A stretch of DNA of 64,000 nt from Paracoccaceae bacterium (GTDB taxonomy: Bacteria; Pseudomonadota; Alphaproteobacteria; Rhodobacterales; Rhodobacteraceae): assembly GCA_003605175.1 (NCBI GenBank), contig QWDA01000007.1, forward strand, positions 1 through 64,000. Reading direction: 5' to 3'. Below, piece after piece: positions 4,528 through 64,000 of the stretch (position 1 is the first letter of the stretch; every line of letters begins with the position of its first letter). Below the pieces are notes generated by a model that was given only the letters and a program-made list of their open reading frames with translations, did no database searches and was not told the DNA's origin. Position numbers and translations under genes: made by a program.

Positions 4528-6015
4528 GTGAACCAGGTCGCACGGCTTGAAGCACAGTCCCAGAACGACTCCGACACGCTGCCGCACAACATCGAGGCCG
4601 AGCAGCAGCTCCTCGGCGCGATCCTCACCAATCCGGATGTCTACGACCGGGTCGCCGCGCTGATCGGGCCGCAGCATTTCTACGAGCCGGTGCATTCCCG
4701 GATCTGGGAGATCGCCGCCGCGCGGATCGCCAAGAACATGACCGCCTCGCCGGTCACCCTGAAGGCCTTCATGGAGGATGACGAGGGGCTGAAGGAGCTC
4801 GGCGGCCCCGCCTATCTCGCCCGCCTCGCCGGCGCGGCGATCTCCTCCTTCGCGGCGCGCGACTACGCCCAGATCATCTACGATCTCGCCACCCGCCGCG
4901 AGCTGATGGCGCTCGGCCGCGACATCACCGCCAAGGCCGCCCGCGTCGACGTGGAGAGCGAGCCCAGGGAACAGATCGTCGAGGCCGAACAGGCGCTCTA
5001 CAAGCTCGGCGAGCAGGGCCAGGCCAGCCAGGGCTTCCAGTCCTTCCTGCGCTCCGTCACCGAGGCGGTGCAGAACGCCAACGCCGCCTACCAGCGCGAG
5101 GGCGGGCTCGCCGGCGTCTCGACCGGGCTCACCGATCTCGACAAGAAGCTCGGCGGCCTGCACCGCTCCGACCTTCTGATCCTCGCCGGCCGCCCCTCGA
5201 TGGGGAAAACCTCGCTCGCCACCAACATCGCCTTCAACATCGCCAAGTCCTATGCCCGCGGCACCCTGCCCGACGGCTCGGTCGGCGCGGTGAACGGCGG
5301 CGTGGTTGGTTTCTTCTCGCTCGAGATGTCGGCCGAACAGCTCGCCGCGCGGATCCTCTCCGAGGCCTCCGAGGTCCCCTCCGAACAGATCCGCCGCGGC
5401 GACATGACCGAGGCCGAGTTCCGCCGCTTCGTCGAGGCCGCGAAGGCGCTCGAGGCCTGCCCGCTCTTCATCGACGACACCGCCGCGCTGCCGATCAGCC
5501 AGCTCGCCGCCCGCGCCCGCCGGCTCAAGCGCGAGCACGGGCTCGACGCGCTCTTCGTCGACTACCTGCAGCTCGTCCGGCCCGCCACCGCCAAGGACAG
5601 CCGGGTGAACGAGGTCTCCGAGATCACGCAAGGCCTGAAGGCCATCGCCAAGGAGCTCGACATCCCCGTCGTCGCGCTCTCCCAGCTCTCGCGGCAGGTC
5701 GAAAGCCGCGAGGACAAGCGCCCGCAACTCTCGGATCTCAGGGAATCAGGCTCCATCGAGCAGGATGCCGACGTGGTCATGTTCGTGTTCCGCGAAGAGT
5801 ATTACAAGGAACGCGAGAAACCCGGTGACCACGAGCTTGAGAAGATGGCCGACTGGGCCGCGGAGATGGAAAAGCTCCACGGCCGCGCCGAGGTCATCAT
5901 CGGCAAGCAGCGCCACGGACCCATCGGGTCCGTGGACCTCTCCTTCGAGGGCCGCTTCACCCGGTTCGGCAATCTCGTGAAGCCCTGGCAGCAGGAGCGC
6001 GACGGGTTCGAGTAG
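4528..6015 (+). CDS. dnaB: replicative DNA helicase
   Basis: 495 residues. Hexameric RecA-fold helicase that unwinds the replication fork. An N-terminal all-helical domain (about 20-120, starting LPHNIEAEQQLLGA) is followed by the ATPase domain with Walker A GRPSMGKTS near residue 222, Walker B ALFVDYLQL near 342, and ALSQLSRQVE plus DLRESGSIEQDAD motifs. The start is GTG at 4528 with AGGGAGG 5 bases upstream. The gene has its own 192-base leader and probably its own promoter. No intein or insertion is present. Confidence 0.97.
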   Translation: MNQVARLEAQSQNDSDTLPHNIEAEQQLLGAILTNPDVYDRVAALIGPQHFYEPVHSRIWEIAAARIAKNMTASPVTLKAFMEDDEGLKELGGPAYLARLAGAAISSFAARDYAQIIYDLATRRELMALGRDITAKAARVDVESEPREQIVEAEQALYKLGEQGQASQGFQSFLRSVTEAVQNANAAYQREGGLAGVSTGLTDLDKKLGGLHRSDLLILAGRPSMGKTSLATNIAFNIAKSYARGTLPDGSVGAVNGGVVGFFSLEMSAEQLAARILSEASEVPSEQIRRGDMTEAEFRRFVEAAKALEACPLFIDDTAALPISQLAARARRLKREHGLDALFVDYLQLVRPATAKDSRVNEVSEITQGLKAIAKELDIPVVALSQLSRQVESREDKRPQLSDLRESGSIEQDADVVMFVFREEYYKEREKPGDHELEKMADWAAEMEKLHGRAEVIIGKQRHGPIGSVDLSFEGRFTRFGNLVKPWQQERDGFE

Positions 6016-6171: not shown

Positions 6172-9024
6172 ATGAAGTTGCGCTCCCAGATTGCCGCGAT
6201 CGTCGCAATCCCCGTACTGGGCATCCTTGCCTTCTCCGGCATCGGCCTGAAGCAGTCGCTGCAAGACCTCCGCGAAGTCGATCTCGCGCGGGATTCGGTC
6301 GAACTGACCGTCCCGCTCGCGTCGTTGGTCCACAACCTGCAGATCGAACGCGGCATGTCCGCCGGCTACATCGCGTCGTCGGGAACGGACTTCGCGAACG
6401 ACCTGCCGGCGCTGCGAAAGACGGTCGACGATGCGATCGCGCAATACGCCGCGCACCGCGACGCGCTTGCGGCGAATGATCCGGCCACGATCCGGGACCT
6501 CGATGCCGATCTGCAGGAGCTTCCGGCGATGCGCGACCGGATCTCGCGCCTCGACCTGAGCACGCCGGACATGGCCGCCTTCTATACCGACATGATCCAC
6601 GATGCGCTCGATCTGAACGGGCATCTTTACGCGCGCATCGGACAGCCCGAACTCGCCCGGGCCGGTGCGGGCCTTATCGCCCTGGCGGAAGCCAAGGAAG
6701 CCGCGGGTCGCGAGCGCGCGATGGGCGCGGCCGGATTCGGCGCCGGGGCCTTCGCGCCGCCCGTGCTGCGCGAGTTCGCGCAATACGGGATCCTGCAGGA
6801 AGCCGAGCTCGACCAGTCCGAGCTGTTTGCCGAAGCGATGGGTGAGGGCATCAACTATCAGGCGGGTCCGGAATACGACGAGGTGGTCCGGCTCCGCGGG
6901 ATCGTTCTCGGATCGGAAGGGCAGGACCTTCAGGGCGAGACCGGGCCCGGCTGGTTCGCCGCCTCGACGAAATGGATCGAGAAGCTGCGCGCCGACGAGC
7001 GGGCGTTCGACGCCGCGGCCGTGGCGCTGGCCGAGACCAAGGCCGAAGGCGCCCGAACAAACGCGATGGTCTTTGGAGGCGCGACGCTCTTCTCGCTCCT
7101 CGCCAGCCTGATCGGCGGCTATCTCATAACCCGGTCGTTCGGCCGCAAGGTCGGCCGCCTTTCCGAAGCGATGGACTCCATCGCCGACAAGGAATTCGAG
7201 GTCGAGATCGCCGGCCTGTCGGAGCGGTCCGAGATCGGCGACCTCAGCCGGTCGCTCGACAGCATGCGGAACGACCTGAAAGACGCGGATGCCCGGCTGC
7301 GGGAGGCCTTCGCCAAGAGCTTCGCCTACGAGGGCAGCGCCTCCGCCATGATGATCGTCGATCCGGACATGAATATCGTCACGATGAACGATGCGTCGCG
7401 AGACATGATGAACGAAAAGGCTCCGGACTTCCGCACGGTCTTCGAAGGCTTCGATCCGGAAGCGCTTCTCGGCTCCAGCATCGACCGGTTCCACGCCGAT
7501 CCCTCCCATCAGCGCAGGATCCTCGCCGACCCATCGAAGCTTCCCTGGCACACCGACATCACGATCGGCGACATGAAGTTCGAGATAAACGCCTCCTATA
7601 TCGAGGCCGAGGACGGCTCCTATGCGGGCAACGTCCTGGAATGGCGCGACGTCACCAAGGAACGTCTGCATTCGGGGATGATCGCGGCGATCGAGCGCGA
7701 CCAGGGGGTGGTCGAGTACACGATCGACGGGAAGATCGTGCGCGCGAACGAGAATTTCGCGAAGGCGCTCGGGGTGACGCCGACGGAGCTCGCCGGCAAG
7801 ACCCAGGGCGATATCCTGCATCCCGAGGAACCGCGCCGCGCCGACCAGTCCAGGATCTGGACCTCGCTGGCGGCCGGGAAAAGCGAGATCGCGAGGCTTC
7901 GCTTCGCCGGCAAGGGCGGTCGGTCGGTCTGGATCCGCGCGGCCTTCAATCCGGTTCTCGACGGCAACGGGAATGCGTTCAAGGTGGTGCTCTTTGCCGA
8001 GGACATCACCTCCGGGGTCGAGAACCACGCCATCCAGGAAGCGGCCAAGGCCGAGGCCGACGCGGCGCGCGAGCATGTCGTGCGGTCCCTTGCCGAGGGG
8101 CTCAACCGGATGTCCTCCGGCGATCTGTCGCACGGCATCGACGAGCGTTTCGCCGAGGAGTACGAGGGCCTCAGGATGGACTTCAACGACGCCGTGGACC
8201 GTCTCGCCGACGTGCTCGGCAATGTCTCCGACAATGTCGGCCGGCTGAAGGGCAGTGCGGGAGAATTGCAATCCTCCGCCACGAACCTTGCGAAACGCAC
8301 CGAGGCGCAGGCCGCCTCGCTGGAGGAGACGGCCGCGGCCCTCGACCAGGTGACCGCGACGGTCAAGACCACCGCGACCGGAGCGCAGGAGGCCGACGCC
8401 GCGGTGCGCGCCGCCCGCGAGGGGGCGGAGTCGGGGAGCGAAACCGTCTCGCAGGCGATTCAGGCGATGGACCAGATCGCGCAATCTTCCGAGAAGATTT
8501 CCTCGATCATCAAGGTGATCGACGACATCTCGTTCCAGACCAACCTCCTGGCGCTGAATGCGGGCGTCGAGGCGGCGCGGGCGGGCGATGCGGGACGCGG
8601 CTTCGCCGTGGTCGCCTCCGAGGTTCGCGCGCTGGCGCAGCGCGCCGCCGAAGCGGCGCGGGAGATCAACGCACTGATCTCCACCAGCCGCGATCAGGTT
8701 CAGCAGGGCGTTCAGTTCGTCGGTGGTGCCGGCGAGGTTCTGGGGGAAATCTCCGAACGGGTGATCTCCGCAAGCGAACGCGTTCAGGACATCCGCCGTG
8801 CGACCGCGGAACAGGCGAACGCGCTGCAGGAAATCAACACCGCCGTGAACTCGATGGACAGCGCGACCCAGCAGAACGCGGCCATGGTGGAGGAATCCTC
8901 GGCCCTGAGCGTCACCCTGAACGACGACGCCGACGCCTTGGCGGAGTTGGTCACCGGGTTCGCGCTGGGTTCGGGGAAGCACGCGTCGAGGAAATCGGGC
9001 GGCGCGACCGAAAGGGCGGCCTGA
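6172..9024 (+). CDS. methyl-accepting chemotaxis protein (NIT-HAMP-PAS-PAS-HAMP-MCP)
   Basis: 950 residues. Membrane-bound chemoreceptor. Order: TM1 about 7-25; periplasmic helical sensor about 30-290 whose VPLASLVHNLQIERGMSAGY segment marks a nitrate/nitrite-sensing NIT domain; TM2 about 296-318; HAMP 318-368; PAS about 378-490 and 500-615; a second HAMP-like segment about 635-680; signalling hairpin centred near 780-830 with FQTNLLALNAGVEAARAG. The C-terminus ends GGATERAA without a visible CheR-tethering pentapeptide. RBS CAGGAGG lies 8 bases before the ATG. No che genes are adjacent, so it is an orphan receptor. The NIT ligand is inferred from the domain family only. Confidence 0.93.
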   Translation: MKLRSQIAAIVAIPVLGILAFSGIGLKQSLQDLREVDLARDSVELTVPLASLVHNLQIERGMSAGYIASSGTDFANDLPALRKTVDDAIAQYAAHRDALAANDPATIRDLDADLQELPAMRDRISRLDLSTPDMAAFYTDMIHDALDLNGHLYARIGQPELARAGAGLIALAEAKEAAGRERAMGAAGFGAGAFAPPVLREFAQYGILQEAELDQSELFAEAMGEGINYQAGPEYDEVVRLRGIVLGSEGQDLQGETGPGWFAASTKWIEKLRADERAFDAAAVALAETKAEGARTNAMVFGGATLFSLLASLIGGYLITRSFGRKVGRLSEAMDSIADKEFEVEIAGLSERSEIGDLSRSLDSMRNDLKDADARLREAFAKSFAYEGSASAMMIVDPDMNIVTMNDASRDMMNEKAPDFRTVFEGFDPEALLGSSIDRFHADPSHQRRILADPSKLPWHTDITIGDMKFEINASYIEAEDGSYAGNVLEWRDVTKERLHSGMIAAIERDQGVVEYTIDGKIVRANENFAKALGVTPTELAGKTQGDILHPEEPRRADQSRIWTSLAAGKSEIARLRFAGKGGRSVWIRAAFNPVLDGNGNAFKVVLFAEDITSGVENHAIQEAAKAEADAAREHVVRSLAEGLNRMSSGDLSHGIDERFAEEYEGLRMDFNDAVDRLADVLGNVSDNVGRLKGSAGELQSSATNLAKRTEAQAASLEETAAALDQVTATVKTTATGAQEADAAVRAAREGAESGSETVSQAIQAMDQIAQSSEKISSIIKVIDDISFQTNLLALNAGVEAARAGDAGRGFAVVASEVRALAQRAAEAAREINALISTSRDQVQQGVQFVGGAGEVLGEISERVISASERVQDIRRATAEQANALQEINTAVNSMDSATQQNAAMVEESSALSVTLNDDADALAELVTGFALGSGKHASRKSGGATERAA

Positions 9025-9307
9025 CCACGGCAACCGCCGGAGGCTCGCCCATGCCCGGGCGGGCCGCCAAGCGGCGGAGGGCCGCGCTTCGCCGGGGACT
9101 CGCCCCTCCGTGATGGCGCCGCGCGCGGCGGTTCGGCCGGACGCCCGGAAAGATCGCCGCCCCCGGCAAGGCGCCCGCCGGCACCCGCCGCCACCGGGCA
9201 GCGCCCGGAGCGCTGCTCCGCGACCAGCCGCGCGGTCTGGCCGCCCGGCCCTCCCGCTCCGCGCGATGTGAGTGGACAGCGCCGCGCAGCCGGGCCAGTC
9301 TCAACCC

Positions 9308-10120
9308 ATGCGCGTGCTCCCCGGCCTTGTTCTCGTCGCGCTCGCCGCCGGGCCGGCGCCGGCCGCGGAAGCGCGGGAGGTGGATCTCGAACTCTACCTC
9401 GCGGTGGACGTGTCCCGGTCGATGGCGCCGGCGGAGCTGGAGATCCAGCGCCGCGGCTATGCCGCCGCGCTGCGCTCGGAGGCGGTGACCCGCGCGATCG
9501 GCGAGGGGCTGATCGGCACGGTGGCGCTCACCTATGTGGAATGGTCGGGCGATTACGCCCAGCGCGTGGTGATCCCCTGGACCGCGATCTCGGGCCCCGC
9601 CGAGGCCGGGGCCTTCGCCGCGCGGATCGAGGAGAACGGCCGTCCGGCGATGTGGCGGACCTCGATCTCCGGCGCGCTGACCTCGGCGCGGGCCAGCATC
9701 GACGGGAACGCCTTCGCCGGGCTCCGGCGGGTGATCGACATCTCGGGCGACGGGCCGAACAACCAGGGCGGCCCGGTCACGGCGGCCCGCGACGCGGCGG
9801 TGGCGGCGGGGATCACCATCAACGGCCTGCCCTTGATGACCCGCGACGGGATCGGCACGAACTGGCATCTCGAGGATCTCGACGAATACTACCGCCATTG
9901 CGTGATCGGCGGCCCCGGCGCCTTCACGATCCCGGTCACCGACTGGCCGAGCTTCGCCGAGGCGGTGAAACGGAAGCTCGTCCTGGAGATCGCCGGACTT
10001 CCGCCGGTAGCCGGGCAAGTGGTGCCGGCCCAGTATTTCGGCATGTCCGAAGACGGCTATGACTGCCTGATCGGCGAGCGGATCTGGCGCGAGAATCGCG
10101 GGCGGTTCACCGTGCCCTGA
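9308..10120 (+). CDS. secreted DUF1194 (VWA-like) protein
   Basis: 270 residues. The N-terminus [22 protein letters not shown] is a Sec signal peptide. The mature part opens with [21 protein letters not shown], a von Willebrand A metal-ion-dependent adhesion motif (DxSxS-like: DVSRS), and later GVRRV-type [10 protein letters not shown], which is the DUF1194 signature of a second VWA strand. An in-frame upstream ATG at 9272 would bury the signal peptide, so 9308 is chosen. DUF1194 proteins are widespread in Rhodobacterales; their function is unknown, probably periplasmic protein-protein interaction. Isolated between the chemoreceptor and alr. Confidence 0.88.
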
Positions 10121-10193
10121 CAGAGGTTCGGCGACCGGAGCGCGCCTTTGGCGCGCGCAAGACGGTTTTGCGCCGCCTCCGGCGCCGCCGTTG

Positions 10194-10216
10194 GCGAGGG
10201 GGCTCCGCCCCCTCGC
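10194..10216. terminator. GC hairpin with TCC loop downstream of DUF1194 gene
   Basis: A perfect 10-bp stem (GCGAGGGGGC / GCCCCCTCGC) with a 3-base loop, followed by CCCCGGAGTATTTTGCCAAGAAG. The stem lies 74 bases after the DUF1194 stop. There is only a short T run, so it may be an intrinsic terminator or one of the hairpin-plus-GGAGTATTT intergenic repeats common in this family. Confidence 0.5.
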
Positions 10217-10316
10217 GCTCCCCCGGAGTATTTTGCCAAGAAGAAGGGGAAGGAGGCCGGAAGGCCACCCGCCACCGGGCCGGGAGCCCCGACCGGGGGA
10301 TGGGCGAGGCGCGCTC

Positions 10317-10345
10317 TTGACCTCGCGGGCCGGCCTGTCATTAGG
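10317..10345 (+). promoter_or_regulatory. possible alr promoter close to the start codon
   Basis: TTGACC at 10317-10322 is a good -35 element. The hexamer 17 bases further on (10340-10345, ATTAGG) is a poor -10. Initiation here would begin at about 10351, which is essentially at the alr ATG (10350), implying a leaderless mRNA. Weak evidence. Confidence 0.25.
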
Positions 10346-10349
10346 AGGC

Positions 10350-11396
10350 ATGGGCACCGGGATCCTCAGCATCGATCTGGACGCGCTCGTCGCCAACTGG
10401 CGGGCGCTCGACGCATTGTCCGACGCGCGCGTCGAGACCGCCGCCGTGGTCAAGGCCGACGGCTACGGGCTCGGGTCCGGCCGCGTCGCGCGGGCGCTGG
10501 CCGGGGCCGGGGCGCGGACATTCTTCGTCGCCGTCACAGAGGAGGGCATGGCGCTCCGCGACGCGCTCGGGCCGGGCCCGCGGATCTTCGTCTTCTCGGG
10601 CCACATGCCGGGCGACGCGGAGCGGCTCCGCGATCTCGCGCTGATCCCGCTCGTCAATTCCGTCGAGCAGCTCACGCGGCAGTTCGAGGCGCTGCCCGGC
10701 CATCCGTTCGGGATCCAGCTCGACAGCGGCATGAATCGGCTCGGCATGGAGCCCGCCGAATGGGCCGCGGTGCGCGAGATCGCCCTCGCGCAGGGGCCCG
10801 ACCTGGTGATGAGCCACCTCGCCTGCGCCGACGAACCCGGCCACGCGATGAACCTGCGCCAGCTCCGCGCCTTCCGCGAGATGACCGACGGGATCGGCGT
10901 GCCCCGCTCGCTCGGCGCCACCGGCGGCATCCTGCTCGGGCCGGACTATCATTTTGACCTGACCCGCCCCGGCATCGGCCTCTATGGCGGCGAGCCGTTC
11001 GCCGAGGCGCGGCCGGTGGTGCGACTCTCGCTCCCGGTGATCCAGACCCGCGAGGTCCCGGCCGGCGAAACCGTGGGCTACGGCAACGCCTGGCTCGCGA
11101 AGAACCCCGCGCGGATCGCCACCGTCGCCGCCGGCTATGCCGACGGGCTGATCCGCGCCATGGGCGGCAGGGCCACGCTCTGGCACGGAGGCACCCCCTG
11201 CCCGCTCGCCGGCCGGGTCTCGATGGACCTCCTCACCGTCGATATTACCGCGCTTCCGGAAACGCCGGATTTCCTCGACATCCTCGGCCCCGCCCAGAGC
11301 GTCGACGCGCTGGCCCGCGCCGCCGGCACCATCGGCTACGAGATCCTGACCGCGCTCGGCCCCCGCTACGCCCGCCGCACCGGAGCCGCCGCATGA
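10350..11396 (+). CDS. alr: alanine racemase
   Basis: 348 residues. PLP enzyme making D-alanine for peptidoglycan. The PLP lysine is K35 in [10 protein letters not shown] and the second catalytic residue is the Tyr of TVGYGNAW near 244; the TIM-barrel motif [10 protein letters not shown] lies about 125. The ATG at 10350 is chosen because [11 protein letters not shown] is the family N-terminus. An AGGAGG sits only one base before it, an unusually tight spacing, and a TTG at 10317 in frame is an alternative start. Its stop overlaps mlaE (ATGA), so wall-precursor supply and lipid transport are co-transcribed. Confidence 0.96.
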
Positions 11397-12166
11397 ACCC
11401 GCTCGCCGCACTCGGCCGGGGCACGCTCGACATCCTCGCGACCATCGGGCAGATCGCGCTCTATGCCTTCGAGACGGTGAGCCACCTCCTGCGCCCGCCC
11501 TTCTACCCCAGGGAATTCCTGCACCAGCTCGTCGCCATCGGCTGGCTTTCGCTCCCGGTGGTCGGCCTGACGACCCTCTTCACCGGCGGCGCGCTCGCGC
11601 TGCAGATCTACGCCGGCGGCGCCCGGTTCAACGCCGAGACCGTGGTTCCCTCCATCGTCGCCATCGGCATCGCCCGCGAGCTCGGCCCCGTGCTGGCGGG
11701 CCTGATGGTCGCCGGCCGCGTCGCCGCCTCCATCGCCGCCGAGATCGGCACCATGAAGGTCACCGAACAGATCGACGCGCTCACCACGCTCTCGACCAAC
11801 CCGATGAAATACCTCACGGTGCCCCGCGTGCTCGCCGCCACGCTGACCATGCCGCTCCTTGTCGGCATCGGCGACGCGATCGGCATCATGGGCGGCTATC
11901 TCGTGGGCATCTGGCGGCTCGACTTCAACGCCGCCAACTACATGACCAACACGGTGCAGTTCCTCGAAACCTGGGATGTGGTCTCGGGCCTGATCAAGGC
12001 GGCCATGTTCGGCTTCATCGTCGCCACGATGGGCTGCTTTCACGGCATGAATTCCGGCCGCGGCGCCCAGGGCGTGGGCCGGGCGACGACCCAGGCGGTG
12101 GTCTCGGCCTCGATCCTGATCCTCGCCGCGAACTACGTGCTGACGGAGGTGTTCTTCGCCGCATGA
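11393..12166 (+). CDS. mlaE: MlaE-family ABC transporter permease
   Basis: 257 residues. Inner-membrane permease of the MCE/Mla-type phospholipid transport system (MlaE/DUF140/YrbE family). Family hallmarks: [11 protein letters not shown] at about 62-72, [37 protein letters not shown] at about 95-130, and about five membrane segments. The ATGA overlap with alr upstream and with mlaF downstream gives a tightly coupled operon. MlaE dimers work with MlaF ATPases and a periplasmic MlaD ring; no mlaD is present in the window. Confidence 0.93.
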
Positions 12167-12909
12167 TCGAGATGAAGAACGTCTCCAAGGCCTTCGGGCC
12201 CAAGCAGGTGCTCCGCGGCATCGACCTCACTGTCGGCACCGGCGAGAGCATGGTGATCATCGGCGGCTCGGGCACCGGCAAGTCGGTGACGATCAAGTGC
12301 ATCCTCGGCATCATCCGCCCCGACAGCGGGCAGATCCTGCTCGACGGCAAGGACGTGACCAAGGAAGACCGCGATGCCTTCCTCGCCCGCTTCGGCATGC
12401 TGTTCCAGGGCGGCGCGCTGTTCGATTCGCTCCCGGTCTGGCAGAACGTCGCCTTCCGTCTCCTGCGCGGCTCGCTCAAGAAACCCAAACCCGAGGCGCG
12501 CGAGATCGCCATCGAGAAGCTGCGCCGCGTCGGCCTCGCCCCCGACGTGGCCGACCTCTTTCCCGCCGAACTCTCGGGCGGCATGCAGAAACGCGTCGGC
12601 CTCGCCCGCGCCATCGCCGCGGAGCCCGGGATCATCTTCTTCGACGAGCCCACCACCGGGCTCGACCCGATCATGGCGGGCGTCATCAACGACCTGATCC
12701 GCGAGATTGTCACCGAGATGGGCGCCACCGCGGTGACCATCACCCATGACATGTCCTCGGTCCGCGCCATCGCCGACCACGTGGCGATGCTGCACGCCGG
12801 CAAGATCCGCTGGACCGGCCCGGTCTCCGAGATGGACAATTCGGGCGACCCCTATGTCGACCAGTTCATCCACGGCCGCGCCGAGGGCCCGATCGAGGCG
12901 GTGCGCTGA
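12163..12909 (+). CDS. mlaF: MlaF-family ABC transporter ATP-binding protein
   Basis: 248 residues. Cytoplasmic ATPase partner of MlaE for lipid transport between membranes. Walker A GGSGTGKSVT about residues 34-43, a Q-loop in FGMLFQGGALFDSLPV (the F-D-S-L-P-V signature typical of MlaF), ABC signature LSGGMQKRVGLARAI near 136, and Walker B IIFFDEPTTGLDP. Starts inside the mlaE stop (ATGA) and ends directly against the next gene. Confidence 0.95.
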   Translation: MIEMKNVSKAFGPKQVLRGIDLTVGTGESMVIIGGSGTGKSVTIKCILGIIRPDSGQILLDGKDVTKEDRDAFLARFGMLFQGGALFDSLPVWQNVAFRLLRGSLKKPKPEAREIAIEKLRRVGLAPDVADLFPAELSGGMQKRVGLARAIAAEPGIIFFDEPTTGLDPIMAGVINDLIREIVTEMGATAVTITHDMSSVRAIADHVAMLHAGKIRWTGPVSEMDNSGDPYVDQFIHGRAEGPIEAVR

Positions 12910-59041: not shown

Positions 59042-59580
59042 GACGGTCTCCGGGCTCGTGGCCGCGCGACCCTATCGCGCACCCCGTGCGGCCTCAACCG
59101 CCCGAACGCAGGTCGGGGTGCCCCGGCCGGTTGCGTGCAGATCAGCGCAGACCGGAGCGGCTTCCCTGGACAGAACGGCCGGGCGACGAATATGCAGACA
59201 AAGCCGATATTCACCTTCCATGAATTGGTGTCCGCTTTCGGAACGCAAGCGCCCGAAAGCGGCGTCTCCGGTGCATATCCGGCGCAAACCACAGTATTCG
59301 GCGCGGTCACCAACCGTTCCGGATCCGAGCAATTGTCAAAGGGCTATTGCCCCGCCTTGACAACATCCATCCGTTCCATCGTTGAAACTCCGCATCTCAA
59401 ATACCTGCCTCGCAGTACAGGAAACAGTGCGGCCAGCTCATCCGCCAACGAGGGCGGCAATGGGGCGCGGATTGCAGTTCCGAAGCCCCCTCACAATCAA
59501 ATGCATTGCATTCGGTAGTGCCGATGCGTCAGTTTCGGATTTCCACGTCCCTTGGCGCCCCTCATTCGAGACACTCCCAT
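59042..59580. other. 539-base lower-GC gap without a gene
   Basis: Distinctly less GC-rich than the window average, with no frame that looks protein-coding on either strand. It may be decayed DNA from the same insertion as the next two genes. An inverted CTTTCGG...CCGAAAG pair (near 59233-59260) is the only structure noted. Confidence 0.5.
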
Positions 59581-60204
59581 TCAAGGACAGGCCGCGCCTC
59601 GGCATTCAAACTCACTCGCCCTGACGCGAATTTCGCCCATCACCCGATCATCCAGGATGAAAATGCCGTCGTCAAAGCCCAGCAGGTTTCCTTGCAAAGT
59701 GACTTCACCGTTGGTCAGTTCAACAGAAGGGTCGGCCGGTGGGCTTTCAGGCACCGCAATACACCCCTCGCCTTTGCAATCGACCCGGTCCACCGCAATC
59801 CGCTGTTCACCAAACGCCGTTGCAAGCAGGTATTCACCATCGACGATCTCGATGAGGTCGCCGCTAATTGATGCACTGCCGTCCTTGGAGGTCAGAACGA
59901 CACCGGCGTTCTCAATCTCCAGGCGGGTTTCCTCGGGGCACGCGTTACCAATGCAAGACACACCGTCCACCGGAATGGCAACAAGTCCGATCGTGGCGTC
60001 TAAGAAGAACTTGCCATCCCTGAAATCGGTGAGCGTCCCGGAGATGCTGTCCTGACCATTCGCGAAACGCAGCGTGACATCGTTCACGTCCTGCCCGAAT
60101 GCAAGGGATGGCGCCACGAGCAACGTTAGGACCGATGCGGCAAGTCGGGCGCGAGTTCGTTTCGAACTGCTCGCTAAGGCATTGATGGCATGTCGGCTCT
60201 GCAT
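59581..60204 (-). CDS. secreted protein of three 47-residue repeats
   Basis: 207 residues. Signal peptide to about 38 (SLAFGQ). Three modules at 43-90, 102-149 and 161-207. Each opens V(T/V/E)LT/R..NG then ISG.L, DG.F.L and ends in a Cys pair five apart (C84/C89, C143/C148, C201/C206). Likely small beta-barrels with one disulfide each. AAGG is 7 bases before the ATG at 60204; a start at 60258 would lengthen it. Resembles, as far as I recall, N-terminal modules of Rhodobacterales OmpA/PBP fusion proteins. Confidence 0.8.
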   Translation of the reverse strand: MQSRHAINALASSSKRTRARLAASVLTLLVAPSLAFGQDVNDVTLRFANGQDSISGTLTDFRDGKFFLDATIGLVAIPVDGVSCIGNACPEETRLEIENAGVVLTSKDGSASISGDLIEIVDGEYLLATAFGEQRIAVDRVDCKGEGCIAVPESPPADPSVELTNGEVTLQGNLLGFDDGIFILDDRVMGEIRVRASEFECRGAACP

Positions 60205-60315
60205 ATCTAACCTTCGTAGACGAGATGAGAGGATGGCCTCGGACTGTACCGCCGGCATGTCTCATTGTGAGAAATGGTCCCGGCGAGGTGCAGCGCACCC
60301 CACCGGGCCAAGCGC

Positions 60316-61422
60316 CTAGTTCTCGACAGTCTCAAGGATACCCGCACGTACGATTTCAAACCATTCGCCGGAAAGGCGGAGTTGTTCAAGACCCGCGTTG
60401 ATGATCGGCAAGGCCGCATTTGCGAAAGCGTTGTCCTTTGAGACAAAGACATGCATCGTTTGCTTCGAGGCGAGCGCGCTGATGTTGGCAACCTGGTCGG
60501 CCAGGCCCAGTTCGCGGTAATCCTCCTCTGCGGGAAGCGCATCGAGCGTCACGACGTCGACCTTGCCGTCCAGCAGCAGCTGCCAGCAGCCGTCTTGCGC
60601 GACGGGCTGGATCAGTTCCACATTCGGCGGCATCAATTGCTCTGCTTCCAGGTCGAAGGTGAACCAGGCCTCGGGCCGGCACAGTCTGGCGCCCTGCAGT
60701 TCTGCGTAGGTTGTAGCATTTGCGTATTCGCTGCCGTTCAGCGTGTAATACCCGACAAGCGCATCATACAGCGGTGCAGAATGGTTGAATGCCGTGCAGC
60801 GATAGGCGCTGGCCGGCGCCAGGAATTCAACCTTCGAACAATCCGGCTTGTACCAGGGGAACGCCATGTCCATGGCGCCGGTTGGCAGCAGGCTGTCGAG
60901 ATGCGAACCCCAATCGTTGACAAAGACGATGCTGAATTCCTGATCCGGATCGCCAAGGGAGATGGCGCGATTGACCATCATGGTCAACGCCCCGCCACCC
61001 TCGAGGCTTTCATCCGTAAAGGGAGCATAACCACTTGCGGTGACAACGCGCAGCGCACGATCCGAGCTTGCCTTGACCGGGGCCGGCTCCGCAACCGCGG
61101 GCGCCGCACTGTCAGTATCAGAGGCCGCGCTGGCCAATGATCCGTCGGCGCAGGGAATCTGCAATACCTGACCGATCTCGACGACATTGGGGCTTGTCAG
61201 AACGTTCGAATTCGCGCTGAACAGGGCCTGAAAGCCACCGCGCACGTCGGCGCGATCCGCAATCTGACTCAGGGTATCACCGCGAACTACCGTGTATGAC
61301 GAACATAGCTCCTGCGCATCTACCGCGGCCGCGCCAATGAGCCCAAAAGACAAGGCTGCCCCACCCAAGAGTTGCGTGTGGACCATTGTCTTACGTGATT
61401 TCCGTTCACAGTGTGTCTGCAC
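60316..61422 (-). CDS. LysM domain fused to type-3 solute-binding protein
   Basis: 368 residues. Signal region to about 36 (AAAVDAQ). LysM domain 43-91 (YTVVRGDTLSQIADRADV, then VEIGQVLQIPC), which binds peptidoglycan; Ala/Ser/Pro linker 92-118; a periplasmic SBP_bac_3 fold 122-368 (RALRVVTASGYAPFTDESLEGGG, FVNDWGSHLDSL, AMDMAFPWYKPDC). GTG at 61422 has GAGGA 10 bases upstream; ATG at 61386 is an alternative. Upstream of, and probably co-transcribed with, the triple-repeat gene. No ABC permease adjacent, so probably a sensor or wall-anchored binder. Confidence 0.85.
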   Translation of the reverse strand: MQTHCERKSRKTMVHTQLLGGAALSFGLIGAAAVDAQELCSSYTVVRGDTLSQIADRADVRGGFQALFSANSNVLTSPNVVEIGQVLQIPCADGSLASAASDTDSAAPAVAEPAPVKASSDRALRVVTASGYAPFTDESLEGGGALTMMVNRAISLGDPDQEFSIVFVNDWGSHLDSLLPTGAMDMAFPWYKPDCSKVEFLAPASAYRCTAFNHSAPLYDALVGYYTLNGSEYANATTYAELQGARLCRPEAWFTFDLEAEQLMPPNVELIQPVAQDGCWQLLLDGKVDVVTLDALPAEEDYRELGLADQVANISALASKQTMHVFVSKDNAFANAALPIINAGLEQLRLSGEWFEIVRAGILETVEN

Positions 61423-61600
61423 GATCTAGGTGTCCTCAAGATTTGGTTGTTCCACCGCGTGATGAACTCCATGAAAGTGTCGGAAATTTGTCCATTGACG
61501 GGATTTTTACCGGCCCGTACGCTGCCCGCCCTTCTTGTGCTATGCAGTTGAGAAGCGGCGTTGCATCGAAATGCGTTCCGGTTCCGGGGCCAGTCGGAAC

Positions 61601-62266
61601 TCACCGGCCGCCAGAATGCCCTGCCTGTGCCTTCAGCTCGATCTTGCTGACATGGGGGAAGTCGCCCGCCGCGATATAGGCCTCCTCCGCCGCCGAAGAG
61701 ACCCGGCCCAGGATCGGGTTGCGGTGCGGATGCCGGCCGAAGCGCTCGATGATCCCGGTGACGCGGGCGCATTGCGACAAAGTCCGCTCGACGAAGGCGC
61801 CCAGGTGCGGCAGTGCGATTTCCGCCTGCTCATGGGCAAGCTCGGTAGCGAGCGCCATCCGCGCAAGATGATCGGGCCCCTCGCAATGGCCGAGGTTGAT
61901 GATGTAGAAATTCCGCTCCCAGCTATGCGGCAGCGCCCGGTAATGACCATTGTCGAGCGCCTCGAGCACCAACCGCGTGGCCTTGATATCCTGCCCGTAA
62001 GCGGCGGGCGTATCGCGCCAGAGCGAGCGCGGGAACTGGTCGAGCGCGATCACCAGCGCCAGCCGCCCGCGCGGGGTCTCGGCCCAGTGATCCAGTTCCG
62101 AGCGCGCCGCGGCAGTGGTCAGCGGCCCGAACCGCTCGCAGATCACCGCGTCCATGCCGCCGCGCATCCGGGTCGCCCAGAATTCCGCGTGGCGTTCCTC
62201 GTTCTCCCAATGCCCGTCCTCCGGAAACCAGAGGTCGAGCACGTCTTCGGGTCGAAACTCCGTCAT
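61601..62266 (-). CDS. DUF924 family protein
   Basis: 221 residues, mostly helical. PEDVLDLWFPEDGHWEN (near 6-22), ALVIALDQFPRSLWRDTPAAY and GHCEGPDHLARMALATELAHEQ match DUF924, a TPR-like fold. AAAGGGG lies 6 bases before the ATG at 62266, while an ATG at 62272 sits right on it. Function unknown. Separated from the LysM gene by about 180 bases. Confidence 0.92.
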   Translation of the reverse strand: MTEFRPEDVLDLWFPEDGHWENEERHAEFWATRMRGGMDAVICERFGPLTTAAARSELDHWAETPRGRLALVIALDQFPRSLWRDTPAAYGQDIKATRLVLEALDNGHYRALPHSWERNFYIINLGHCEGPDHLARMALATELAHEQAEIALPHLGAFVERTLSQCARVTGIIERFGRHPHRNPILGRVSSAAEEAYIAAGDFPHVSKIELKAQAGHSGGR

Positions 62267-62378
62267 CGTCATCCCCTTTCGCCCGGCCGAGGCTACCAGC
62301 AAGGACGGCGCGCGGGAAAGCCGGAGGTGACGCAGGGCACGCACAGGCGCCCTGCGCTGACGAGAGGATCGCCGCGTC

Positions 62379-63164
62379 TCAGAAGGTCGGCAGCACCGGC
62401 AGCGGCTGGCCCAGCCATTTGAGGCTGATCTCGTTCAGCTCACCGCCCAGCTTCTTGTGCAGGATGAAGACGTTCACCCACTGGAGCAGATCGTAATTGC
62501 CCTTTTTCACGCCGATGAAGGCGGGACTGTCCTTGAGGATGAACTTCCGCTCGAGACCGATATCCGGGTTCTTCTCGCCGATCTCGGCGGCGAGCGTGTT
62601 GCCGGAGACCAGAACGTCGACCTGACCCGAGACGAAGGCCGACATGGTGGCCGCGTTGTCGCCGAAGCGGATGATCTCCACGTCGTCGCCCGCGATCTTG
62701 GTCAGCTCCAGATCTTCGAGCGTGCCGCCGGTGAGGCCCACCTTCTTGCCGGCGAGGTCGCCGACCGTGCCAACCTCGACCGAGGCCGGCGCGAAGGCGC
62801 CCGAGTAGAACGGCGCATAGGCGGCCGAGAACCAGATCGACTTCGCCCGCTCCGGGTTCGCGCCCATGGTCGCGATCACCAGGTCCACCCGGTTGGTTTC
62901 GAGGAACGGAATCCGCTGCTTCGAGGTAACCGGCACCAGCTCCAGCTCGACGCCCAGATTCTCGGCGATCAGCTTGGCCACGTCCACGTCATAGCCCACC
63001 TGCTCGCCCTCGTCGCCGAGCGAGCCGAAGGGCGGAAAGCTCTCGGGCACAGCGATCTTGATCGTGCCGGCCGCCAGGATGTCCGACAGGTCGGCCAGCG
63101 CCGCTCCGGTGGTCCCCGCCAGGATCGCCACGGCCGCCAGGCAATTGCGCAAAGTTTTCTTCAT
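62379..63164 (-). CDS. polar amino-acid ABC transporter substrate-binding protein
   Basis: 261 residues. Signal MKKTLRNCLAAVAILAGTTGAALA. SBP_bac_3 core: IKIAVPESFPPFGSLGDEGEQVGYDVDVAKLIAENLGVELEL, then VDLVIATMGANPERAKSIWFSAAYAPF. Binds a polar amino acid in the periplasm. RBS GGGAGACC upstream of the ATG. With the permeases upstream it forms one transporter. Confidence 0.94.
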   Translation of the reverse strand: MKKTLRNCLAAVAILAGTTGAALADLSDILAAGTIKIAVPESFPPFGSLGDEGEQVGYDVDVAKLIAENLGVELELVPVTSKQRIPFLETNRVDLVIATMGANPERAKSIWFSAAYAPFYSGAFAPASVEVGTVGDLAGKKVGLTGGTLEDLELTKIAGDDVEIIRFGDNAATMSAFVSGQVDVLVSGNTLAAEIGEKNPDIGLERKFILKDSPAFIGVKKGNYDLLQWVNVFILHKKLGGELNEISLKWLGQPLPVLPTF

Positions 63165-63166
63165 GT

Positions 63167-63208
63167 CCTTGGTCTCCCTCTTGGACTGTTTCTTGGACTG
63201 GGTCTTGG
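63167..63208 (-). repeat. 12-base-periodic CCAAGR repeats before the SBP gene
   Basis: On the minus strand CCAAGR occurs at four exactly 12-base-spaced positions (plus-strand 63167, 63179, 63191, 63203); the intervening hexamers are CCCAGT, AACAGT, GGGAGA. It includes the SBP Shine-Dalgarno. Fills the 52-base permease-SBP gap. Confidence 0.6.
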
Positions 63209-63216
63209 AAACGGGG

Positions 63217-63921
63217 TCAGCCCGCCGCCACGGGTCGTTTCGAGACCGCGCCGAGCCGCGCCTCCAGCCGCCGCGCCCAGACCGAGAGCGGGAAGCAGAG
63301 GCAGAAATAGATCAGCGCCATCACCGGAAAGATGATGAAGGGCTCGGTCCCATCGACCGGCGCATTGGCCCAGCGCTTGCCGATCGTCATGAGGTCGTGG
63401 AACCCGATGATATAGGCGAGCGAAGTGCCCTTGATGATCTGCACCATGAACCCCACCGTCGGCGCCAGCGCGAGCCGGAGCGCCTGGGGCAGGATCACCA
63501 GCCGCAGCGTCGAGAGGAAATGCAGCCCCAAGGACCGCGCGCCCTCCCACTGGCCGGCGGGGATCGCCTCGATGGCGCCGCGCCAGACATCAGCCAGATA
63601 GGCGCTCGAGTAGAAGGTCAGCGCGGCCGAAGCGGCGATCCACGGGTTGACGTCCTGGCCGAGAAGCCGCGGCACCCCAAGCCCGGCGATGAAGAGAAGC
63701 ATCAGGAGCGGCGCCGACTCGAACAGCCAGATATAGGCGATCGCCACCCGCTTGGCCCAGCGGACGGGCGAGGTGCGCAAGACGGTGATGCCCGCCCCCA
63801 CCAGACCGCCGCCGAGAAAGGCGATCAGCGACAGATAGATCGTGTATTGCGTCGCCTCGAGGAGCTGGAACAGCACGATCCCGCCCGGCTTGCCGAGGAT
63901 CGCGACCAGGAAATCGCTCAC
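63217..63921 (-). CDS. polar amino-acid ABC transporter permease
   Basis: 234 residues, about five helices. HisM/GlnP family: the EAA-type loop VWRGAIEAIPAGQWEGARSLGLHFLSTLRLVILPQALRLALAP lies at about 110-155. GTG start at 63921 overlaps the preceding permease (GTGA), showing translational coupling. Second permease subunit of the transporter. Confidence 0.93.
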   Translation of the reverse strand: MSDFLVAILGKPGGIVLFQLLEATQYTIYLSLIAFLGGGLVGAGITVLRTSPVRWAKRVAIAYIWLFESAPLLMLLFIAGLGVPRLLGQDVNPWIAASAALTFYSSAYLADVWRGAIEAIPAGQWEGARSLGLHFLSTLRLVILPQALRLALAPTVGFMVQIIKGTSLAYIIGFHDLMTIGKRWANAPVDGTEPFIIFPVMALIYFCLCFPLSVWARRLEARLGAVSKRPVAAG

Positions 63922-64000
63922 CGCGCCGCCCTCCGCCAGGGGAACAGCCGCGGATAGGCCAGCGCCAGCGCCGTCTTGAAGACGAGCGAGACGAGGATGT
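63918..64000 (-). CDS. ABC transporter permease, C-terminal end (partial)
   Basis: Only the last 26 residues are visible (ILVSLVFKTALALAYPRLFPWRRAAR then stop). The GTGA overlap with the following permease and the position suggest the first permease of a two-permease amino-acid transporter. Ends at the window edge. Confidence 0.6.
   Translation of the reverse strand, partial: ILVSLVFKTALALAYPRLFPWRRAAR

Follow-up and report, generated by a model that had tools for sequence, protein, structure and literature searches.

The locus studied here raises the question of what a secreted protein joining a LysM domain to a solute-binding fold does together with the secreted repeat protein encoded beside it, and whether the two take part in uptake or in signalling. 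The window, a stretch of 64,000 nucleotides from a Paracoccaceae bacterium, holds both genes, referred to as A and B.

The two secreted proteins

The features of the pair were the following:

60316..61422, minus strand: gene A, secreted LysM plus SBP_bac_3-like protein of 368 aa (ORF, Pfam, AF2, Foldseek)
61312..61422, minus strand: putative signal peptide of A, residues 1-37, cleavage after DAQ (by eye from the sequence)
61153..61296, minus strand: LysM domain of A, residues 43-90 (Pfam PF01476)
60337..61062, minus strand: type-II periplasmic-binding (SBP_bac_3-like) domain of A, with four invariant Cys and pocket residues R171 and D257
60275..60310, minus strand: hairpin directly 3' of the A stop, present in the window, L061 and L062 (z -4.8, -3.2 and -2.1)
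59581..60204, minus strand: gene B, encoding a secreted triple-repeat protein (207 aa counted from the likely ATG)
59935..60081, minus strand: repeat 1 of B, ending in CIGNAC
59761..59907, minus strand: repeat 2 of B, ending in CKGEGC
59587..59727, minus strand: repeat 3 of B, ending in CRGAAC

Gene A starts with GTG, with GAGGA upstream, and its product corresponds to the 368-residue LysM protein described in the sequence-only reading; the LysM domain matched PF01476 with E 2.4e-9 (37.4 bits vs. a curated cut-off of 20.9) and was followed by a low-confidence linker leading to the binding fold. The A protein alone did not match Pfam SBP_bac_3 (PF00497) at E<=1, so that independent proof of the type-3 fold proposed in that reading was required. 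The Pfam model was matched by 31 of the 68 relatives of A, the profile of the A family retrieved amino-acid SBPs of solved structure (best 4.2e-12), and the AF2 model (pLDDT 91.3) matched amino-acid SBPs of the PDB in Foldseek (4.3e-13). The predicted structure, its Foldseek matches and the family profile confirmed a two-lobed, complete type-II binding fold in the model of A.

Residue numbers of the binding domain refer to the 331-residue mature protein. W153, P156, C158, C172, C211, C242 and D252 were invariant in the 68 relatives. A loss of the canonical pocket Arg was our first thought, and was ruled out when profile alignment of the A family with the ordinary SBP encoded next door placed R171 at that position. 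D257 lies at what we take to be the canonical spacing of the pocket Asp, as in HisJ, and both residues were kept in all 14 members of the clade of A. A is thus predicted to retain the Arg and Asp that bind alpha-amino acids in such pockets. The strong hairpin after A perhaps sets unequal expression of A and B.

The start of B is probably the ATG at 60204, which is preceded by GAAGG, and not the position proposed earlier (60258), which gives a protein 18 residues longer. A signal peptide was recognised in the product, along with three CxGxxC(P) repeats. These are about 50 residues long and have CxGxxC at their end, in agreement with the secreted protein of three Cys-pair repeats first described. 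No match was obtained for B in direct searches of Pfam and NCBIfam, PBP_like_2 and OmpA domains being absent according to Pfam, nor in a profile search of the PDB. Its AlphaFold model (pLDDT 78.8) displayed five strands in each repeat and, in at least two repeats, a short turn ahead of the final strand; Foldseek gave nothing with E<0.001, the top matches being KOW, Tudor and PilZ barrels, and weak matches to LSM and RimP-SH3 profiles were obtained in relatives. The strand order of the model and the weak profile matches in relatives suggest that each repeat may form a five-strand Sm/SH3-like barrel.

Surroundings and origin of the pair

Upstream of A, the following features were found:

61601..62344, minus strand: DUF924 gene, upstream neighbour of A, outside the conserved unit
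62379..63164, minus strand: ordinary SBP_bac_3 of an ABC system, outside the conserved unit
63217..63921, minus strand: HEQRo-type ABC permease, outside the conserved unit
63918..64610, minus strand: second permease-like gene (permease match), running past the window end
59052..64000: in-window part of a 5.7-kb block (in full 59052-64783) that has no counterpart in the sister species (G141)

The absence of permease and ATPase genes claimed for these surroundings held for the ATPase, of which no gene adjoined the upstream SBP and the two permeases, and failed for the permeases, since the latter lie upstream of A on the same strand together with their SBP. These ATPase-less ABC genes, of polar-amino-acid type (62379 to about 64610), had native codon use, yet they fall in the block missing from the sister species.

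In the sister species, the only other species of the genus sampled, the exoIII-syntenic and the response-regulator-syntenic blocks lie 83 bp apart in the alignment and nothing of 59052-64783 is present. This 5.7-kb difference is either an insertion here or a deletion in the sister species, and the alignment alone proves neither. Codon use of A and B departed from a reference of 92 gene calls covering about 140 kb of the genome, made with a simple caller that may include wrong ORFs (GC3 z -2.2 and -2.9, CAI z -2.3 and -3.0 for A and B, respectively). DUF924, the SBP and the first permease had ordinary codon use, so that foreign codon use within the block, and with it the lower GC noted earlier, was confined to A and B. 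Elsewhere in its genome, the sister species has a LysM-SBP pair that is distantly related (around 40% identity), which indicated that the A of the window is not the genus's own copy; for DUF924 it has just a 29% relative and no ortholog. No convincing boundary repeats flanked A-B, and Rfam and tRNA scans gave no match. A plasmid search had no match with B, and with A it yielded homologs of at most 38% identity among seven long matches, on plasmids of Ruegeria, Leisingera and Phaeobacter. Foreign codon use together with absence from the sister species supported a recent acquisition of A and B, in line with the earlier suspicion that the pair may be mobile.

Relatives of the pair and their gene neighbourhoods

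A followed by an adjacent B on the same strand was found in three further genomes (L061, L062 and L191), and the two genes therefore co-occur elsewhere, as the module idea of the sequence-only reading demanded. B lies directly downstream of A both in an uncultured Rhodobacteraceae MAG (L061; 77% identity for A and 55% for B) and in Jannaschia pohangensis DSM 19073 (L062; 73 and 49%, respectively), and the neighbourhoods are unrelated. The A genes of these two loci and of the window formed one clade (support 99; 100/99 in a second tree), and its sister clade (Yoonia, Loktanella and others; 57-69%) had no B. The fourth pair (L191, genome G313; 31% for A and 41% for B) is alike in order and strand and its A belongs to a different, distant clade (100/100); the B tree was too weak to decide if the two lineages of B are sister to each other. 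At L191, a resolvase-family recombinase gene (4995-5609) about 3 kb from the pair fits a mobile setting, and a peptide-type ABC cluster lies nearby on the opposite strand. The known B loci number four and most LysM-SBPs lack B. No gene for a wall enzyme was conserved next to the A-B pair.

LysM-SBPs are common in the Rhodobacteraceae (129 genes in the tree), and in a class-wide sample outside the family matches did not extend beyond either the SBP part or LysM. A same-strand ABC-permease match within 6 kb occurred at 2 of 84 LysM-SBP loci (the window and L126), as counted with one permease query that distant permease types could escape. Ordinary ABC permeases, whose presence beside LysM-SBPs was to tell against a module, are thus rare neighbours, and the ABC neighbourhood was absent from L061, L062 and other relatives.

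A different association appeared in one LysM-SBP clade, with tandem copies located after a Ser/Thr kinase gene at all nine loci with enough upstream sequence. FHA and PP2C genes stand between the kinase and the LysM-SBPs in L114, L117 and L119, and a PP2C gene is part of the locus in L111 and L118. A tenth kinase locus (G288) presented the order kinase, repeat-PBP-OmpA, DctP, LysM-SBP. The genomes checked (12) have 1-5 kinases each, which makes chance adjacency unlikely, although the loci of the clade are homologous and not independent. In a simple hydropathy scan, all 16 kinases had one predicted TM helix with a C-terminal part beyond it. This linkage of SBP and kinase genes, seen at 10 loci of relatives, was absent at the window and the other three A-B loci, where no kinase gene adjoins the pair.

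Other arrangements were observed in the family. A large separate clade (L078-L085, Tateyamaria, and L123-L155) contains tandem LysM-SBP pairs of two paralog lineages, the pair being kept at some 27 loci with neither a kinase nor a permease as neighbour. Divergent LysM-SBP genes share the strand of a Band-7 (SPFH) gene in L100, L101, L104, L142, L147, L148 and L156; ClpB and an OmpA-type protein are often close by. In L063, L066 and L071, two LysM-SBP genes stand head to head and belong to different clades, and those of L063 adjoin a pair made up of a LuxR-type response regulator and a Cache-domain histidine kinase.

The profile of B matched in 257 of 397 genomes of the family. Apart from B, repeats of this type constitute the N-terminal domain of PBP_like_2-OmpA proteins (PF12849 plus PF00691), with which B aligns. 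Repeat, solute-binding domain and peptidoglycan-binding domain are therefore either fused in one chain or split over two genes, A carrying LysM and SBP and B the repeats in the split version; by this Rosetta-stone argument, B would work with A. Genes for repeat-PBP_like_2-OmpA proteins adjoin LysM-SBP genes in G288 and G022. In L106 (G063:C23, about 6460-9150), a frameshifted repeat-PBP gene is followed by a frameshifted LysM-SBP gene, representing a decayed linkage. The genome of the window has two repeat-PBP_like_2-OmpA genes in Ser/Thr kinase operons, one with kinase, PP2C, repeat-PBP_like_2-OmpA and a PilJ-domain protein (L150, G000:C2:98001-117000, 6662-12902) and the other with kinase, repeat-PBP_like_2-OmpA and a PilJ-domain protein (L149, G000:C35:152001-171000, 6813-12313); both operons combine extracytoplasmic sensor-like proteins with a kinase.

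Possible functions and comparison with known systems

We tentatively favor, at somewhat under an even chance, a model with A-B as the extracytoplasmic half of a ligand sensor that is anchored to peptidoglycan and modulates a Ser/Thr kinase, B being the partner of A. A would be exported, held at the wall via LysM, and would close on its ligand, a small molecule that is probably amino-acid-like. B, the other exported product of this small gene unit, would act as the dedicated partner of A, its three disulfide-stapled Sm/SH3-like barrels holding A or relaying its ligand state. The pair would then modulate a transmembrane Ser/Thr kinase with a periplasmic C-terminal domain, as encoded in relatives; in the genome of the window, the pair would have to act in trans, on one of the five kinases of that genome. 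We infer the contact between A and B, the ligand class and the kinase as receiver, and likewise the coupling to a kinase of the window pair, which has no adjoining kinase gene. The kinase/FHA/PP2C operons of relatives lend support to signalling rather than uptake, as had been proposed for the pair, and the missing kinase gene next to A-B detracts from it. The ATPase-less ABC system upstream and the presence of B in just four loci were also counted against the sensor. Adjacency of SBP and kinase genes need not mean a functional link, a point made for histidine kinases (PMC11113362). For Ser/Thr kinases, control by SBPs is listed as a general possibility (PMC9602780) and is established for GlnH-GlnX-PknG (PMC6069109).

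An accessory role in uptake, with A as a wall-tethered amino-acid scavenger feeding the upstream ABC system and B as a periplasmic helper, agrees with the close spacing on one strand of permeases, SBP, DUF924, A and B and with the amino-acid pocket residues that A appears to keep. We consider it quite unlikely, given that the ABC system has its own SBP, that codon use sets A-B apart from the ABC genes, that L061, L062 and other relatives have no ABC neighbourhood, and that the peptide-type cluster of L191 is on the other strand. A role in wall homeostasis is also improbable, if slightly less so: A would bind peptidoglycan through LysM, and through the SBP a fragment of the wall (a muropeptide or a D-amino acid), and would regulate envelope enzymes with B and no kinase. 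The LysM anchor itself and the location of other LysM-SBP clades beside Band-7 genes or other envelope-like neighbours speak for this role, which leaves the kinase operons unexplained and finds no conserved wall-enzyme neighbour at the A-B pair.

The pair might finally be passing cargo, a recently imported remnant at present functionless in this genome. Its foreign codon use, its absence from the sister species and the decayed LysM-SBP and repeat-PBP genes of G063 would all be expected of such a remnant; nevertheless, neither ORF is disrupted, the invariant cysteines and pocket residues are in place, and the pair stays together in four genomes with identities of A down to 31%, so we regard this as very unlikely.

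Among known systems, the sensor proposed for A-B resembles GlnH-GlnX-PknG of Actinobacteria, in which an amino-acid-type SBP is encoded with a Ser/Thr kinase and a nutrient signal instead of transport is proposed (PMC6069109, PMC9769921). That system uses a lipoprotein as SBP and GlnX for the membrane step, and its kinase, PknG, does not span the membrane, whereas here the binder is LysM-anchored, the kinase of relatives has its own TM helix and no kinase gene adjoins the window pair. The repeat-PBP_like_2-OmpA proteins are like A-B in having B-type repeats, a solute-binding domain and a peptidoglycan-binding domain, but they consist of one chain instead of two, with OmpA in place of LysM and another SBP family. 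Ordinary SBP_bac_3 binding proteins of amino-acid ABC systems have fold and pocket residues in common with A, which differs from them in its LysM anchor, two extra conserved cysteine pairs and the lack of a conserved permease or ATPase. The kinase/FHA/PP2C trio found in three relatives of A also occurs in the type VI secretion PpkA-Fha-PppA pathway (PMC3953482, PMC5995506); in contrast, the operons of relatives hold extracytoplasmic wall-anchored binders, and an unsystematic look recognised no secretion genes in their flanks.

No description of LysM-SBP fusions or of their kinase operons was found in the literature searched, which lay mostly outside subscription journals. The mode of working would be one already known. 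For this family, the architecture, the repeat partner and the neighbourhoods with a kinase seem not to have been described before. In a broader and more doubtful proposal, A-B would belong to an undescribed class of wall-anchored co-receptors combining barrel repeat, solute binder and peptidoglycan anchor, in one chain or split, which would feed extracellular ligand signals to transmembrane Ser/Thr kinase/FHA/PP2C circuits, the window pair being a horizontally moving split version. The repeat domain, with no confident Pfam match, occurs in most sampled genomes of the family, and the proteins annotated here as "transporter substrate-binding" seldom adjoin transporter genes. The question of what bacterial Ser/Thr kinases sense is regarded as open (PMC6069109). 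If wall-anchored solute binders are the kinase input in this abundant family, the signal sensed would become testable.
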